From positions 1-38,433 of the IMG/VR virus record IMGVR_UViG_3300006733_000028: DNA of 38,433 nucleotides. One strand, given 5' to 3'. Below, piece after piece: positions 5,042 to 15,908 of the stretch. Made by a program: the position numbers and the translations under genes. This stretch comes from a virus. The notes beneath the pieces were generated by a model, which was not told the DNA's origin, did no database searches, and saw only the letters and a list, made by a program, of their open reading frames with translations. Position 1 is the first letter of the stretch, and each line of letters begins with the position of its first letter.

Positions 5042-5236
5042 TTATCCTCCTTCCGGGAAAAGCTGTTCGACTGGAGTTTCTAAGATCTTGGCAAATCTAT
5101 ATTTCAGTTCAACGCGGACTTTTCGCTTACCTAATTCATAAGTAGAAAGATCTGTCTGAGAAATACCGACTTCATTAGCTAATTCATATTGCTTTTTACC
5201 TTTATTCATTCGCGCTAGTTTTAATGGATTTATCAT
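5042..5236 (-). CDS. Cro-like XRE helix-turn-helix regulator
   Basis: At 64 residues this is a bare HTH_3 domain. The pattern LARMNKGKKQYELANEVGIS, then DLSTYELGKRKV, gives helices 2-3 with the usual S-x-YE-GKR ending. It lacks the C-terminal domain of CI-type repressors, so it is Cro-sized. It heads the leftward early operon of recombination and replication genes. A perfect 10-bp inverted repeat lies 37-62 bases upstream, which I infer to be its operator. AAGGGA precedes the ATG. Confidence 0.85.
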   Translation of the reverse strand: MINPLKLARMNKGKKQYELANEVGISQTDLSTYELGKRKVRVELKYRFAKILETPVEQLFPEGG

Positions 5237-5272
5237 CTTAGTCCCTTCTTTTTTTAAAACTTTGGTTTTGTA

Positions 5273-5298
5273 AGCAAAAAAATATCACTTTTTGCTTA
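5273..5298. promoter_or_regulatory. Inverted-repeat operator upstream of the XRE gene
   Basis: TAAGCAAAAA (5273-5282) and TTTTTGCTTA (5289-5298) are exact reverse complements separated by six bases. They lie just upstream of the XRE start. Related GCTTAA half-sites occur at 5337-5342 and 5348-5353. Dyads of this size are typical HTH_3 repressor sites. The bound protein is inferred, not shown. No clear -35/-10 pair was found here. Confidence 0.65.
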
Positions 5299-5373
5299 TC
5301 TATATATTCTCTTTTCTGTTTGTGTTCTTTATCATTGCTTAATCTCTGCTTAAAAATCTTTTGCTAGTTTTTA

Positions 5374-5422
5374 AACAAAAAAACCCGACCATTACCTAAT
5401 CTTTCAGTAACAATCGGGTTTT
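5374..5422 (-). terminator. Rho-independent terminator of the RNA/methyltransferase region
   Basis: On the minus strand a nine-base stem (arms 5414-5422 and 5380-5388, AAAACCCGA/TCGGGTTTT) encloses a 25-base loop. The loop contains a smaller TTAC/GTAA pairing. A run of seven T residues follows directly. It would stop transcription coming from the 5640 and 7192 promoters before the XRE operon. Confidence 0.8.
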
Positions 5423-5429
5423 CTGAGAG

Positions 5430-5439
5430 TTTTTGCTTA
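5430..5439. promoter_or_regulatory. Additional copy of the XRE operator half-site
   Basis: TTTTTGCTTA here is an exact copy of the half-site at 5289-5298. It is followed by an imperfect palindromic AGCTAAAGCTTAGCT tract (5446-5460). The repeat on the far side of the terminator suggests a multi-site operator region. Confidence 0.5.
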
Positions 5440-5515
5440 AACTTTAGCTAAAGCTTAGCTATAACTCCTTTATTCATAACCACTTTTATATATTATGTTA
5501 ACTACATAGGCTTAG

Positions 5516-5543
5516 AAAAAGGAGCTATCCCTTTGGACGCCCC
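5516..5543 (-). terminator. Terminator of the small RNA
   Basis: On the minus strand GGGGC-GTCC, loop AAAG, GGAT-(A)-GCTCC forms a nine-pair stem with one bulge and one or two G-U pairs. TTTTTC follows. It lies about 90-118 bases downstream of a consensus promoter with no open frame between. Confidence 0.7.
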
Positions 5544-5633
5544 GATTGTTATTAGGTATAGCCTTGTGTTTTTAACGTGGATTCTCGCGCCCGCTTCCAC
5601 TTGGCGCCTCGCTAGGTCTGGTTTTCAAAGATC
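5516..5633 (-). ncRNA. Candidate small structured RNA, about 118 nt
   Basis: A perfect promoter (5640-5668) and an intrinsic terminator (5516-5543) bracket a stretch with no plausible coding frame. It is noticeably richer in G+C than its neighbours. Besides the terminator hairpin it can form a GTGGA/TCCAC stem (5577-5581 with 5596-5600). It also contains GGCGCC and GCGC elements. An 11-base segment (5541-5551) is exactly complementary to the 5' arm of the next terminator downstream. It does not match an RNA family that I know. It could be a regulatory RNA acting on the control region or on host transcripts. Confidence 0.6.
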
Positions 5634-5639
5634 ATTGGT

Positions 5640-5668
5640 AGTATACACGATACTTCTTATCTTGTCAA
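5640..5668 (-). promoter_or_regulatory. Consensus sigma70 promoter for the small RNA
   Basis: On the minus strand TTGACA (5663-5668), a 17-base spacer, then TATACT (5640-5645). The -35 and spacer overlap the last codons of the 112-residue gene. The expected start is near 5633. Confidence 0.85.
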
Positions 5669-5995
5669 GTGCTTTTTCTTTCGAAGAAGCTGAAAAACGA
5701 ACTTTTCCCCTGTTGCCATTGTTATCGGCCTTTCTTCTATTTTCTTAATATCCTTAATGCCAAAGGTTTCCTTTATTGTCAGTTCGTACATCTTTGCAGG
5801 AAGCAAATCCTTAAAATACGACTCTGATCTGAACTGATGGATAAAGGTGTTTATCAGTTCTGTTGTAACTTGGGTAAAGCTATTCTGCTTGCCAGTAATA
5901 GCCTGACAGATGGCAGTATAAGCTCTATTTGTAGACTCCTGAATTTGAAGCGTTTTATTGACTTTCTTCTCCCCTATTTGATCGTAAAACCCCAT
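5657..5995 (-). CDS. 112-residue hypothetical protein after the methyltransferase
   Basis: AGGAGG lies ten bases before the ATG. The protein is probably alpha/beta with a helical N-terminal half (KVNKTLQIQESTNRAYTAICQAI). The middle is ELINTFIHQF and the end is basic (QLLRKKKHLTR). It has no nuclease motif that would make it the restriction partner of the methyltransferase, and it is much shorter than PvuII endonuclease (about 157 residues). It shares the operon with the methyltransferase. Function unknown. Confidence 0.65.
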   Translation of the reverse strand: MGFYDQIGEKKVNKTLQIQESTNRAYTAICQAITGKQNSFTQVTTELINTFIHQFRSESYFKDLLPAKMYELTIKETFGIKDIKKIEERPITMATGEKFVFQLLRKKKHLTR

Positions 5996-6036: not shown

Positions 6037-6954
6037 TCAAATCTCCTTCTTCGCTCTATGCCTACGATAAATAGCCTCGCCTAATCCATTAAAGCGAAAT
6101 GCAGAGCCAATAACATAGTTTTTATTTATTTCTATACTAATCCATTTTCGGTTTAATCGCTCTGCAATTTCGCCAACGACATTACTCCCACTGAATGGAT
6201 CTAATATTACATTATGCTTCTTGGTCAGAAATTTGATAAAAAATTCTGGTATGGCTTCTACAAATCTTGCAGGGTGAACTTCTAACTTATGTTTTTTACA
6301 AGAGCTTAAATATCTGTGACTACTCATAGTATTCGCTGCTATTATAAGATTTGATGGAATGGCTCCTTTGTGTCGGGTATTCCATTTTTTTGAAACCACA
6401 TGGCCAGATGGTCTAGCGCCATCATTATAGCCACGCTTCAATAATGTTTCCATACTTCTGCTATATGGCTTTAATACACGAAGATTAGAAGCTTTTGGCC
6501 TTTTTGTTTTTGCTAGCCACCATATAGGATTGACGGCGTCTTTAACTCTCACGCGTTTTATCGTAACCCACTGAGCTGGGGCAGGCATTTTTGCTGGATT
6601 GTACCAATAAAATTCTTGAGCAAGCTTAAAAGGGCCTTGCGAGCTGCATAGTTTGAGAAGAAGTTCAAAATGGTATAGGCTACGTGTTGGCTCGCCTTTA
6701 TTCCATGATCCTCCAATGTCTAAGACAAAGCTTCCATTGCCCTTCAAAACTCGAGCGATTTCTTGAGCATATGGCCAAAACCATTCACAGTATCTTTCTG
6801 CAGAAACGTTTCCATAAGATTTTTTTCGCCTCAAGGCGAAAGGAGGCGAGGTTATGACAAGATCGATTGAACCATTAGGAATTGTTTTTAATATATCTAT
6901 ACAATCTGCACAGTATGCTTTTCCAAAATTAGTACTATAAAGCGGGGCGATCAT
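6037..6954 (-). CDS. PvuII-type N4-cytosine DNA methyltransferase
   Basis: This 305-residue beta-class enzyme has the catalytic SPPF at residues 36-39 within TSPPFALRRKKSYGN. It then has SFVLDIGGSWNKGEPTRS, a variable target-recognition middle with a PSGH motif, and HPARFVEAIPEFFIKFLT. It ends with motif I DPFSGSNVVGEIAERL followed by RKWISIEI. SPPF and the overall order closely resemble M.PvuII as I remember it, so it should methylate N4 of cytosine, perhaps in CAGCTG or a related palindrome. No cognate endonuclease is visible, so it is probably an orphan that protects phage DNA. It follows an RHH regulator in the same operon. Confidence 0.9.
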   Translation of the reverse strand: MIAPLYSTNFGKAYCADCIDILKTIPNGSIDLVITSPPFALRRKKSYGNVSAERYCEWFWPYAQEIARVLKGNGSFVLDIGGSWNKGEPTRSLYHFELLLKLCSSQGPFKLAQEFYWYNPAKMPAPAQWVTIKRVRVKDAVNPIWWLAKTKRPKASNLRVLKPYSRSMETLLKRGYNDGARPSGHVVSKKWNTRHKGAIPSNLIIAANTMSSHRYLSSCKKHKLEVHPARFVEAIPEFFIKFLTKKHNVILDPFSGSNVVGEIAERLNRKWISIEINKNYVIGSAFRFNGLGEAIYRRHRAKKEI

Positions 6955-6960
6955 GCTCTT

Positions 6961-7146
6961 TCATCTCTTCAATTCCTTCCTACATTTAAAGCAAAGATTC
7001 CAAGTGCCATTAAGACCATCTTTAATAAATTGACGCGCAATTTCTGATTCGCTTACTTTATCTTCTTTTGCCCTTTTTACTAACTTTCGTCTTAAGGATA
7101 CAGAAAGTCGTACTCCTAATATAGGAGCATCATATCTTTTAACCAT
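6961..7146 (-). CDS. Ribbon-helix-helix transcriptional regulator
   Basis: The ATG at 7146 is preceded by AGGAGG eight bases upstream. That makes it a better start than the longer frame at 7191, which would begin in the promoter. The 61 residues contain a strand (GVRLSVSL) and two helices (RRKLVKRAKEDK, SESEIARQFIKDGLNG) in the MetJ/Arc order, then a CxxC tail (NLCFKCRKEL). It sits between a perfect promoter with a dyad operator and a DNA methyltransferase gene. It probably represses its own operon, in the way that controller proteins time methyltransferase expression. Confidence 0.8.
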   Translation of the reverse strand: MVKRYDAPILGVRLSVSLRRKLVKRAKEDKVSESEIARQFIKDGLNGTWNLCFKCRKELKR

Positions 7147-7160
7147 AACAACAGCCTCCT

Positions 7161-7190
7161 TGTTTAACAAATGATAACAATTGTTAAACA
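7161..7190. promoter_or_regulatory. Dyad operator for the RHH regulator
   Basis: TGTTTAACAA (7161-7170) and TTGTTAAACA (7181-7190) are exact reverse complements with a ten-base spacer. The spacer holds a further TAACAA (7175-7180), so AACAATTGTT is itself palindromic. Half-sites repeat every ten bases, as RHH tetramers prefer. The array begins one base after the -10 box and covers the transcription start. Confidence 0.8.
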
Positions 7191-7191
7191 A

Positions 7192-7220
7192 AGTATACCT
7201 GATGTTTTCAAACTTGTCAA
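7192..7220 (-). promoter_or_regulatory. Consensus sigma70 promoter of the RHH-methyltransferase operon
   Basis: On the minus strand TTGACA (7215-7220), a 17-base spacer, then TATACT (7192-7197). The expected start near 7185 is inside the dyad operator, an arrangement suited to autorepression. Confidence 0.9.
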
Positions 7221-7914: not shown

Positions 7915-7943
7915 ATTTTACCTTACAAATATCTACTTGTCAA
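7915..7943 (-). promoter_or_regulatory. Sigma70 promoter giving a leaderless toxin mRNA
   Basis: On the minus strand TTGACA (7938-7943), a 17-base spacer, then TAAAAT (7915-7920). Six bases (TATGCT) follow and then the ATG at 7908, so transcription should start at or next to the start codon. No ribosome binding site fits in between. Confidence 0.8.
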
Positions 7944-8599: not shown

Positions 8600-8844
8600 T
8601 ACTCATCTTCTCTTCTTTTTGAGTTCATATCTTTTAAAACTGCTTTATCAATTGTATCACAAACGTCTTTTCTAAGTTTACGTTGTTTAGTTGCCAGTTC
8701 AGCTATTTCTATATTACAGATATTCCTTTTAGTAATAAACTTTGCTTTTTCTCTTTCAAGAAAGTGTATATCTTTCAAATCATTTGCAATAACTTGAAGT
8801 TCTTTTAATAGTTGACGTTTAAATGGTAACTTTATTTCCTTCAT
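8599..8844 (-). CDS. Coiled-coil hypothetical protein
   Basis: The protein has 81 residues from the ATG at 8844; a GTG at 8862 would add six residues, and neither has a strong ribosome binding site. The whole chain is predicted helix with K/E/L heptads (KRQLLKELQVIANDLKDI and later). It overlaps the response-regulator end and is coupled to the lipoprotein. It might bridge membranes as a spanin partner, but no membrane anchor is seen. Confidence 0.6.
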   Translation of the reverse strand: MKEIKLPFKRQLLKELQVIANDLKDIHFLEREKAKFITKRNICNIEIAELATKQRKLRKDVCDTIDKAVLKDMNSKRREDE

Positions 8845-9196
8845 ATAATATTTTCTTAACACTCTTACTTAATGTCTCCATCGATATAGGTTTAGACATA
8901 TAATAATTTGGTGGTTCTGAATATATCTCTTTTTTACCTTCAAAATCGTGTATAATAGATAAAACTATTATTGGAATTTCTTTATTAATTTTCCGTATTA
9001 CTCTTATAGTATCCCAACCATCTCTACCAGGCATTATAATATCGCACATCACAAGCTCAGGCTTTTCTTTCTTAAATTTTTTTATACCTTCTGCAGCAGA
9101 TTGAGCAGTTATAGTATTATATCCTTTACTATCAAGATAATCTCTTACAAGCTCAAGAAAACCTACCTCATCATCTATTAATAGTATTTTAGCCAC
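8819..9196 (-). CDS. Stand-alone receiver-domain response regulator
   Basis: This is a complete CheY-like receiver domain. In TTG-start numbering it has the acidic pair D9-D10 in LLIDDE, the phosphoacceptor D53 in VMCDIIMPGRDGW, the switch residue S81 in VLSI, and K103 in MSKPIS. No output domain follows. The GTG at 9196 is better spaced from AAGGAA than the TTG at 9199. It lies between holin-like and lipoprotein genes. Since no kinase is present, it would be phosphorylated by, or would compete for, a host histidine kinase. Confidence 0.9.
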   Translation of the reverse strand: MAKILLIDDEVGFLELVRDYLDSKGYNTITAQSAAEGIKKFKKEKPELVMCDIIMPGRDGWDTIRVIRKINKEIPIIVLSIIHDFEGKKEIYSEPPNYYMSKPISMETLSKSVKKILYEGNKVTI

Positions 9197-9509
9197 CAAA
9201 CAATTCCTTTAGTTTAATAATGGCAAAAGTTATAGAAACAATAGCTGCTGGTATGCCCAAAGCCCATGCTATAGCTTGTTTTACATATCCCTTAACTTCA
9301 TTCATACATTCAGTTTTTCTTTCATACTGACTATGTATAAAATCAAATATTTCATTCAATTTAGCACAAGTAGCTTTCTGACGATCAATTGCTTCTTTAT
9401 TGTGAGAACTGCGCCACTCAGTAATTATAGTTTTTAGTTCTACTATATTATTCTCAACTTTTCTAAGTCTAGCATCTATATTTAACTTCTCTAGAGTTAA
9501 ATCTCCCAC
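9189..9509 (-). CDS. XhlA/holin-like membrane protein
   Basis: This 106-residue protein has an N-terminal coiled coil (DARLRKVENNIVELKTII) and a middle segment with two cysteines. One C-terminal transmembrane helix follows (about 80-98, WALGIPAAIVSITFAII), with a short charged end. This is the haemolysin XhlA-type arrangement used by phage holin-associated proteins. It starts with GTG after AAGGAA. Its neighbours are an exported protein and a lipoprotein, which supports an envelope or lysis role. Confidence 0.65.
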   Translation of the reverse strand: MGDLTLEKLNIDARLRKVENNIVELKTIITEWRSSHNKEAIDRQKATCAKLNEIFDFIHSQYERKTECMNEVKGYVKQAIAWALGIPAAIVSITFAIIKLKELFGG

Positions 9510-14763: not shown

Positions 14764-14792
14764 TTGACAGAAGTTTACTTATAAGCTATACT
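14764..14792 (+). promoter_or_regulatory. Consensus sigma70 promoter of the plus-strand moron
   Basis: TTGACA (14764-14769), a 17-base spacer and TATACT (14787-14792) are followed by six bases (TATGTT) and the ATG at 14799. The expected transcription start is the start codon itself, so the first gene would be read from a leaderless mRNA. Confidence 0.85.
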
Positions 14793-14798
14793 TATGTT

Positions 14799-14927
14799 AT
14801 GATAAAGCTTAAACTTAATTGTCTTAAATGTAAACGTTGTAATCATAAATGGACACCTCGCAAATCAGAAATTCGCATTTGCCCTAAGTGCAAATCCCCA
14901 TATTGGGATAAAGAACGGAGAAAGTAA
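14799..14927 (+). CDS. 42-residue zinc-ribbon protein
   Basis: The short protein has two C-x-x-C pairs, CKRC (within LNCLKCKRCNHKW) and CPKC (in IRICPKCKSPYWDKERRK), which form a compact rubredoxin-type zinc ribbon. WTPR and SPYW around the cysteines are typical of small ribbon proteins with a 'CP.C....W' ending. The start is the ATG at 14799, immediately after the promoter. It leads a five-gene plus-strand group. Confidence 0.75.
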   Translation: MIKLKLNCLKCKRCNHKWTPRKSEIRICPKCKSPYWDKERRK

Positions 14928-14948
14928 TTATGCCTACAAGAGGTAAAC

Positions 14949-15167
14949 ATGACCACTTTTCAAAAAGCTATTATAGCCTTAATAATCCTGCTTCTTGTTT
15001 GGTTGTTTCTTTTTAATCGATATAGCATCGTTGGTTCTGGTCAACAGACAGCTTATAAATTAGACAGATTTACAGGTGAAACTTATGCATTACACGGAAG
15101 CAAATCTCTCAGAACAACTGTTAAGTTGCCATTAACCTTTGATGATATATCTAAGAAAGATCTATGA
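14949..15167 (+). CDS. 72-residue single-pass membrane protein
   Basis: AGAGGT lies just before the ATG. Residues 5-24 form one transmembrane helix (FQKAIIALIILLLVWLFLF), followed by a 45-residue soluble part with a YKLDRFTGETYAL beta hairpin. Proteins with this 'RFTG' style appear as small membrane proteins in many bacteria. It shares an ATGA overlap with the next gene. Confidence 0.7.
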   Translation: MTTFQKAIIALIILLLVWLFLFNRYSIVGSGQQTAYKLDRFTGETYALHGSKSLRTTVKLPLTFDDISKKDL

Positions 15168-15472
15168 AAGAACTAGAAAACCAACAACCAAAAGGTATTG
15201 AAGATTTAGAACCCTGGCAAACAACCACAGGTCTTAAAATCTTCATATTGTTAAGGTTTTTGGCAAAAATAGTATTCCATTTGTCATTATTGATATTTTT
15301 AATATTTATATTGTTTGATCTTAAAACGATTCCCATAAAATATGTTTTTTTGTATTTTTTGTTCTTATGCCTTGTTTACGATAAAAAAGAAACCCTTTCT
15401 TTTTTAAAAGAGATATTTACTGGTAAGCTTTTTAAAGGTAGTCCTCTTCTTAAAATATTCAAAAGAAATTAG
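15164..15472 (+). CDS. 102-residue two-helix membrane protein
   Basis: A soluble N-terminus (KELENQQPKGIEDLEPW) precedes two strongly hydrophobic helices (about residues 25-50 and 57-78). A basic amphipathic tail follows. The ATGA overlap with the preceding membrane gene suggests a complex of the two. A superinfection-exclusion or envelope role is possible but not shown by any motif. Confidence 0.7.
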   Translation: MKELENQQPKGIEDLEPWQTTTGLKIFILLRFLAKIVFHLSLLIFLIFILFDLKTIPIKYVFLYFLFLCLVYDKKETLSFLKEIFTGKLFKGSPLLKIFKRN

Positions 15473-15479
15473 ACAACAA

Positions 15480-15908
15480 ATGAGTAAAGCCCACAAAGAT
15501 ATTAAATTTTCTCCTGAACGTATAAAAAATTCTGCTAATGCACATAGAGGTCTTAAGCGCTCTGAGAAAACCAAGAAAAAAATGAGTGCAAATCAAAAAG
15601 GTTTTAAAAATAGTAACTGGAAAAATGGACGATACAAAAAGAAGGGATATGTTTTTATTCTTAAACCTGATCATCCATTTGCAAACAGTTTGGGTTATGT
15701 TCGAGAACATCGTCTTATAATTGAATCTCAAATCGGTCGTCCTCTTTTGCCTAAAGAAGAAGCTCATCATCTTGGTGAAAAAGATGACAATAGACCTCAT
15801 ATGCTTATGGCATTTGTTAATCAAGCTACTCACAACAGATTTGAAAAAAATTGTCCTATTAAACCCTCTAATATAATTTTCGATGGTCGTCATTTAAAGT
15901 CTCCTTAA
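15480..15908 (+). CDS. HNH homing endonuclease with NUMOD3-like N-terminus
   Basis: The 142-residue protein begins with NUMOD3-like short motifs (HRGLKRSEKTKKKMSANQKG) that bind DNA. The HNH domain follows: YVREHRLIIESQIGRPL (about 75-91), EAHHLGEKDDNRPHMLM (about 99-115), and a final H-x-x-F. HH and the D-DN-R residues are intact. It is clearly a paralogue of the minus-strand HNH protein at 20645-21148. No intron or intein is visible beside it, so it is a free-standing element that may have helped to mobilise this gene group. Confidence 0.85.
   Translation: MSKAHKDIKFSPERIKNSANAHRGLKRSEKTKKKMSANQKGFKNSNWKNGRYKKKGYVFILKPDHPFANSLGYVREHRLIIESQIGRPLLPKEEAHHLGEKDDNRPHMLMAFVNQATHNRFEKNCPIKPSNIIFDGRHLKSP

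Follow-up and report, generated by a model that had tools for sequence, protein, structure and literature searches.

The window, by which we mean the whole 38,433-nucleotide stretch of viral DNA that was analyzed, carries on its minus strand a small cassette situated between a DNA methyltransferase operon and a gene for a Cro-like protein, the neighbors that the initial annotation had named. The operon upstream encodes a small protein with weak similarity to partition proteins, the DNA methyltransferase (N6/N4 type) and a protein of 112 aa. Some 280 nt downstream of the cassette, and sharing its strand, lies an operon that opens with the Cro-like gene (HTH_3) and continues with a small ORF, a gene for a 266-aa protein, a Cas4-domain exonuclease gene and a replication-initiation gene. 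The features of this region, in the order in which a minus-strand polymerase would meet them, are as follows.

5657–5995, minus: ORF of 112 aa, family not recognized, which closes the methyltransferase operon and overlaps the promoter with its 3' end
5640–5668, minus: sigma-70-type promoter, TTGACA-17-TATACT (promoter scoring)
5516–5632, minus: predicted short RNA of ~117 nt (115–120), its +1 assumed to lie near 5632 and its 3' end where the U-tract of T1 ends
5502–5600, minus: candidate small ORF with a GTG start, 32 aa (VEAGARIHVKNTRLYLITIGASKGIAPFSKPM), GAGG 6 nt upstream; crosses T1
5516–5543, minus: terminator T1, GGGGCGUCC AAAG GGAUAGCUCC UUUUU
5379–5424, minus: terminator T2, situated in the Cro-like gene's leader, a long hairpin with G-U pairs followed by a U tract (fold and terminator scan)
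5271–5298, minus: inverted repeat resembling an operator, TAAGCAAAAA-N8-TTTTTGCTTA, ahead of the Cro-like gene
5042–5236, minus: Cro/CI-like HTH_3 protein of 64 aa, first gene downstream of the cassette

The promoter matches the sigma-70 consensus at 11 of 12 positions (5668–5640), in agreement with the initial description of a consensus TTGACA-N17-TATACT element. When both strands were ranked by a weighted promoter score, it tied for the second-best value and was among the top four of 76,786 positions. Promoters of this strength number four in the window, compared with a mean of 0.17 across 30 dinucleotide shuffles. The other three are located at 7943 (minus), 7220 (minus) and 14764 (plus); the first two lie ahead of small genes and of the methyltransferase operon. 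A terminator scan found no comparable terminator within 350 nt downstream of any of the three. From the methyltransferase operon to the Cro-like gene the cassette promoter is the only strong one, the runner-up minus-strand site on the way from the cassette to that gene ranking only about 1000th in the window by promoter score. Direct reading of the sequence reveals an inverted repeat, AGTAT-CGTGT-ATACT, that spans part of the −10 element. The operator-like repeats between T1 and the Cro-like gene carry TAAGC/GCTTA half-sites, and half-sites related to those of the repeat listed above are present at 5335–5354 and 5430–5457. A separate, activator-dependent promoter near these repeats is conceivable.

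Two of the other strong promoters have surroundings of their own. At 7160–7220 (minus) a TTGACA-17-TATACT promoter is followed by an operator-like inverted repeat, TGTTTAACAA...TTGTTAAACA, and precedes a small gene (6961–7191) upstream of the methyltransferase. At 14764–15908 (plus) a near-consensus promoter heads a small cassette that includes an HNH endonuclease gene (15480–15908), and this cassette opposes the direction of nearly all other genes in the window.

The intrinsic terminator that the initial annotation had assigned to the cassette was recovered as T1, which has a predicted energy of −10.8 kcal/mol and ends at 5516. The promoter–terminator unit is real, and the combination of a strong promoter with an early terminator predicts, as read from the sequence, a discrete transcript of ~115–120 nt. 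Also as initially reported, the cassette is raised in G+C (48.7%, whereas the window as a whole has 37.2%); just 2.9% of 117-nt stretches are as rich. The foldable stems that had been attributed to the RNA did not hold up: the stability of the short RNA was equaled by 113 of 200 shuffled versions (z 0.24), and no two-stem element is prominent in its fold. A covariance search against Rfam returned nothing at the gathering threshold and, up to an E value of 5, unrelated weak matches only, in keeping with the earlier failure to assign a known RNA class; ARAGORN found no tRNA or tmRNA in the cassette.

The cassette had also been described as lacking a coding frame. This is not strictly true, because the region contains the 32-codon GTG frame preceded by GAGG, with an intermediate codon score and no protein match. 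A gene for a small protein, running from 5600 to 5502 and encoding the 32-aa peptide from this GAGG ribosome site, nevertheless strikes us as quite improbable. The frame is open, its ribosome site is plausible and its codon score exceeds that of 97% of off-frame segments, but the same score falls below that of 99% of real 32-codon gene segments. The predicted product has no match in Pfam, in PHROGs or among phages, a 33-codon open frame is not rare at such a G+C content, and the frame crosses T1, so that most transcripts would miss its end.

A second terminator, T2, which the initial annotation had missed, lies in the leader of the Cro-like gene and is the strongest terminator detected in the window, stronger than T1. 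As a minus-strand RNA its fold has an energy of −22.3 kcal/mol (z −5.5), whereas the same region read as a plus-strand RNA reaches only −11.9 kcal/mol (z −2.7), because the G-U pairs of the hairpin turn into A-C mismatches on that strand. T2 is tuned to the minus strand, and we counted this in favor of a leader function. T1 and T2 are thus arranged in tandem, both between the cassette promoter and the Cro-like gene and on one strand. The arrangement is most simply read as one in which the cassette promoter serves the Cro-like operon through the tandem terminators, which would make the "stand-alone" RNA the leader of this operon as well. Of the initial description, then, the discrete transcript is still predicted; its independence is doubtful, given the shared strand and a promoter that is the only strong one available to the Cro-like operon. 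The claim that the RNA stands alone and represents a new class finds no support here.

Inspection of the short RNA and the leader that follows it revealed two stretches of complementarity, also overlooked in the initial annotation as far as T2 is concerned. The segments involved are listed here, with the bases in single brackets being those looped out of the duplex.

5541–5558, minus: antisense block 1, UACCUAAUAACAAUCGGG (inverted repeat I3)
5394–5419, minus: target of block 1, the 5' arm and loop of T2, CCCGAUUGUU[ACUGAAAG]AUUAGGUA (duplex search)
5518–5528, minus: antisense block 2, AUAGCUCCUUU, the 3' arm of T1 and the start of its U-tail (inverted repeat I7)
5461–5471, minus: leader target of block 2, AAAGGAGUUAU (inverted repeat I7)

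Block 1 matches CCCGAUUGUU...AUUAGGUA of T2 as a perfect complement, and the duplex comprises 18 Watson-Crick pairs, with the 8-nt ACUGAAAG looped out, at −22 kcal/mol. Within the short RNA, block 1 is largely unpaired except for CCU, which is partly paired, and the final GGG, which lies within T1. Block 2 pairs with the leader over 11 nt including one G-U. The two blocks are colinear with their targets, and both duplexes can coexist.

How unusual is this complementarity? By local complementarity the leader is the best partner of the short RNA in the window, but narrowly so, with a score of 29.5 against 29.0 for the runner-up, and 46 of 60 shuffled RNAs found an equally good partner somewhere in the 38 kb. 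Because shuffled RNAs so often find such a partner, only its position right behind the RNA makes the pairing notable. Within the leader, such complementarity was seen in ~0.05–0.5% of shuffled RNAs or shuffled leaders when gaps were penalized more strictly, and in 14–24 of 2000 shuffles (about 1%) under the loosest penalty. A duplex scoring with loose gaps was dropped since it aligned everything. In terms of net interaction energy, the short RNA and the nascent T2 leader gave −15.7 kcal/mol, a value matched by none of 400 shuffled RNAs, and the short RNA with the complete T2 gave −8.5 kcal/mol, matched by one of 400. Yet 48 of 1867 segments of the window reached the net energy of the nascent leader, the strongest of them mostly on the plus strand.

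These data bear on two alternatives. The first is that the cassette encodes a free-standing RNA that acts in trans by pairing with other phage or host messages. Its discrete promoter and terminator would suit such an RNA, as would the raised G+C in an A+T-rich genome and the long single-stranded stretches in the predicted fold. We nonetheless judge it unlikely, because no partner in the window surpasses the adjacent leader in local complementarity, the partners of higher energy elsewhere are mostly on the plus strand, opposite most genes, and no homologue was found in the phage, plasmid or IMG/VR collections. The initial suggestion of a phage regulatory RNA is therefore plausible insofar as the best local pairing partner is the T2 leader; for the accompanying suggestion of a host-targeting RNA we found no evidence, and it was dropped because the host is not identified.

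The second alternative is that there is no regulatory RNA at all: the promoter, though real, would serve mainly as a secondary one, T1 would end the methyltransferase operon, and the complementarity would reflect chance or a decayed inverted duplication. The promoter does overlap the end of the last gene in that operon, two inverted matches are short, at 11 nt apiece, and the statistical support is modest. But a near-consensus promoter placed exactly between the end of the operon and T1 is unlikely to arise by chance, and the combined complementarity is rare in shuffles; we consider it very improbable that the locus is devoid of a regulatory RNA in this sense. As regulatory elements, the complementarity and the alternative folds described next are suggestive; they were spotted after the fact in one genome.

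The RNA that would result from reading through T1 (5632–5370) has a predicted energy of −73.6 when block 1 is paired with T2, compared with −63.5 when T1 and T2 are folded apart. Its z-score is −3.7, and none of 200 shuffles was as stable. This result is relevant to a further possibility, namely that the cassette is an ordinary early leader, in which a strong host-type promoter is followed by tandem terminators that are overcome by a phage or host antitermination protein or by leakiness, and the short RNA is an inert by-product. Lambdoid operons, in which RNAs ending at the first terminator are produced, offer a parallel. That the promoter, the tandem terminators and the operon share one strand is consistent with an ordinary leader, as is the lack of unusual structure in the short RNA by itself. 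Left unexplained would be the colinear complementarity to T2 and the extra stability of the read-through fold, and no antitermination protein was recognized among the proteins scanned. An ordinary leader is possible, if somewhat unlikely.

The interpretation that we tentatively favor is that the cassette represents the promoter and terminated leader of the Cro-like/replication operon and that the short RNA regulates this same operon, as an attenuator or antiterminator. The promoter, T1, T2, the complementarity and the mutually exclusive folds are computed, and the proposed mechanism connects them as follows. On the minus strand, transcription would begin near 5632. T1 would stop most polymerases, with release of the short RNA, while the rest would presumably read on to T2. 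Block 1 could then engage T2 along its 5' arm and its loop, blocking or opening this terminator and allowing transcription to enter the Cro-like operon. Block 1 could outcompete the 3' arm of T2, because it forms full Watson-Crick pairs where the 3' arm forms several G-U pairs. Pairing in cis, on the read-through RNA, would constitute a leader switch, and pairing in trans might follow once the released short RNA had accumulated; either would make Cro-like gene expression depend on the activity or the dose of the promoter. That the effect would be antitermination, and not repression, is suggested by the strand of T2 that is covered.

Two further considerations temper this model. First, T2 alone (−22.3) is as stable as the block 1 duplex, so that the outcome would hinge on the kinetics of folding. 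Second, the final three bases of block 1 are locked in T1, which is a counterpoint to the proposed pairing. In a stronger version of the model, the released short RNA would accumulate and serve as a trans antiterminator by strand invasion of T2, and would thereby exert positive feedback on the Cro-like gene with no need for an antitermination protein; we regard this version as doubtful. If T1 rather than T2 were the controlled step, a role resembling P4 immunity, in which pairing promotes termination, is possible.

Several known systems resemble the favored leader model in part. In the Salmonella prophage Gifsy-1, some transcripts pass the terminator of IsrK, and the resulting message pairs with short IsrK, which acts on it in trans (PMC4825925). 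As with IsrK, the promoter, the intrinsic terminator and the downstream read-through message are on one strand, and the downstream gene is a phage control gene, here the Cro-like gene on the same strand. IsrK is complementary to a downstream stretch of its own read-through RNA, with alternative folds; here a corresponding complementarity and alternative folds are seen, but the statistics are no more than suggestive and no homologues were found. Unlike the present case, IsrK acts on the translation of orf45-anrP, whereas the cassette RNA is proposed to target another intrinsic terminator, ahead of a Cro/CI-like gene; the function of IsrK is experimentally proven, whereas that of the cassette is predicted. 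The cassette gave no Rfam match to known IsrK at the gathering threshold or up to an E value of 5.

The CI RNA of the satellite phage P4 is an antisense RNA that governs premature termination in its own operon by means of seqA and seqC (PMC4825925). The likeness lies in a short untranslated leader RNA that pairs with other segments of the leader and affects termination ahead of replication genes. The difference is that CI RNA arises by processing and favors termination, whereas for the cassette RNA the sequence predicts a terminator of its own and, if anything, opposition to T2. The C4 antisense RNA of phages P1 and P7 and their relatives contains two blocks complementary to the downstream message of its own transcript, and the cassette RNA similarly carries two blocks whose complements lie further along its transcript. 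The C4 family (RF01695) is listed from Proteobacteria and phages (PMC2864571). Its covariance model did not match the cassette at the gathering threshold or up to an E value of 5.

In phage HK022, putRNA forms polymerase-binding stem-loops that defeat terminators (PMC9378689). Like putRNA, the cassette RNA is located just 3' of an early promoter and would defeat downstream intrinsic terminators. It differs in that putRNA has two stem-loops that bind RNA polymerase and acts on any terminator, whereas the cassette RNA is poorly structured (z 0.24) and is proposed to base-pair with T2. In the attenuation of replication genes on the plasmids pT181 and pIP501, pairing of an antisense RNA decides whether a leader terminator forms. 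Those antisense RNAs come from the strand opposite their target, whereas the cassette RNA lies upstream on the same strand and is partially complementary. Since there was no Rfam match to these systems, the cassette is not filed as a member of any of them, but it may work like them. If the favored model is right, it would extend the small group of antisense RNAs that phages direct against their own operons (IsrK, P4 CI, C4) to a phage lineage known from environmental sequences, and an intrinsic terminator before a Cro-like gene would join their targets as a new type. Such RNAs easily escape homology searches, and a search based on layout (a strong promoter, an early terminator and a complementary second terminator) could reveal more of them.

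Searches for DNA similarity gave two weak chance matches in phages and none in plasmids, and exact-motif scans with TACCTAATAACAATCGGG and GAGGCGCCAAGTGGAAG returned matches in unrelated DNA only. The exonuclease, the Cro-like protein and the proteins of 112 and 266 aa had no close relatives when IMG/VR was scanned. The methyltransferase has three relatives in IMG/VR (L006–L008), all of which are without the cassette and the early region. A further set (L009 and L015–L021) has capsid proteins 53–67% identical to that of the window and structural genes in common with it; the early region and the cassette are missing from these as well. Among the strong promoters that were inspected in the capsid relatives, none precedes a comparable short terminated RNA, and one, at 1872 in L015, runs into a methyltransferase gene. 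By these sequence comparisons the early region of the window is an orphan among the collections searched (phage, plasmid and IMG/VR).

Three minor observations concern other parts of the window and its relatives. The segment 887–1114 (minus) is a fragment that resembles the C-terminal part of the methyltransferase at 6037–6954, and it also matches the C-terminal parts of the relatives of this enzyme. L009 and L010, close relatives in their structural genes, are found inside contigs binned as Parcubacteria and Nitrososphaeraceae genomes, and these are probably misbinned contigs of free phages. Finally, the gene at 8819–9199 (minus) encodes a 126-aa response-regulator receiver domain (PF00072, E 1e-21), which is unusual for a phage of this size.
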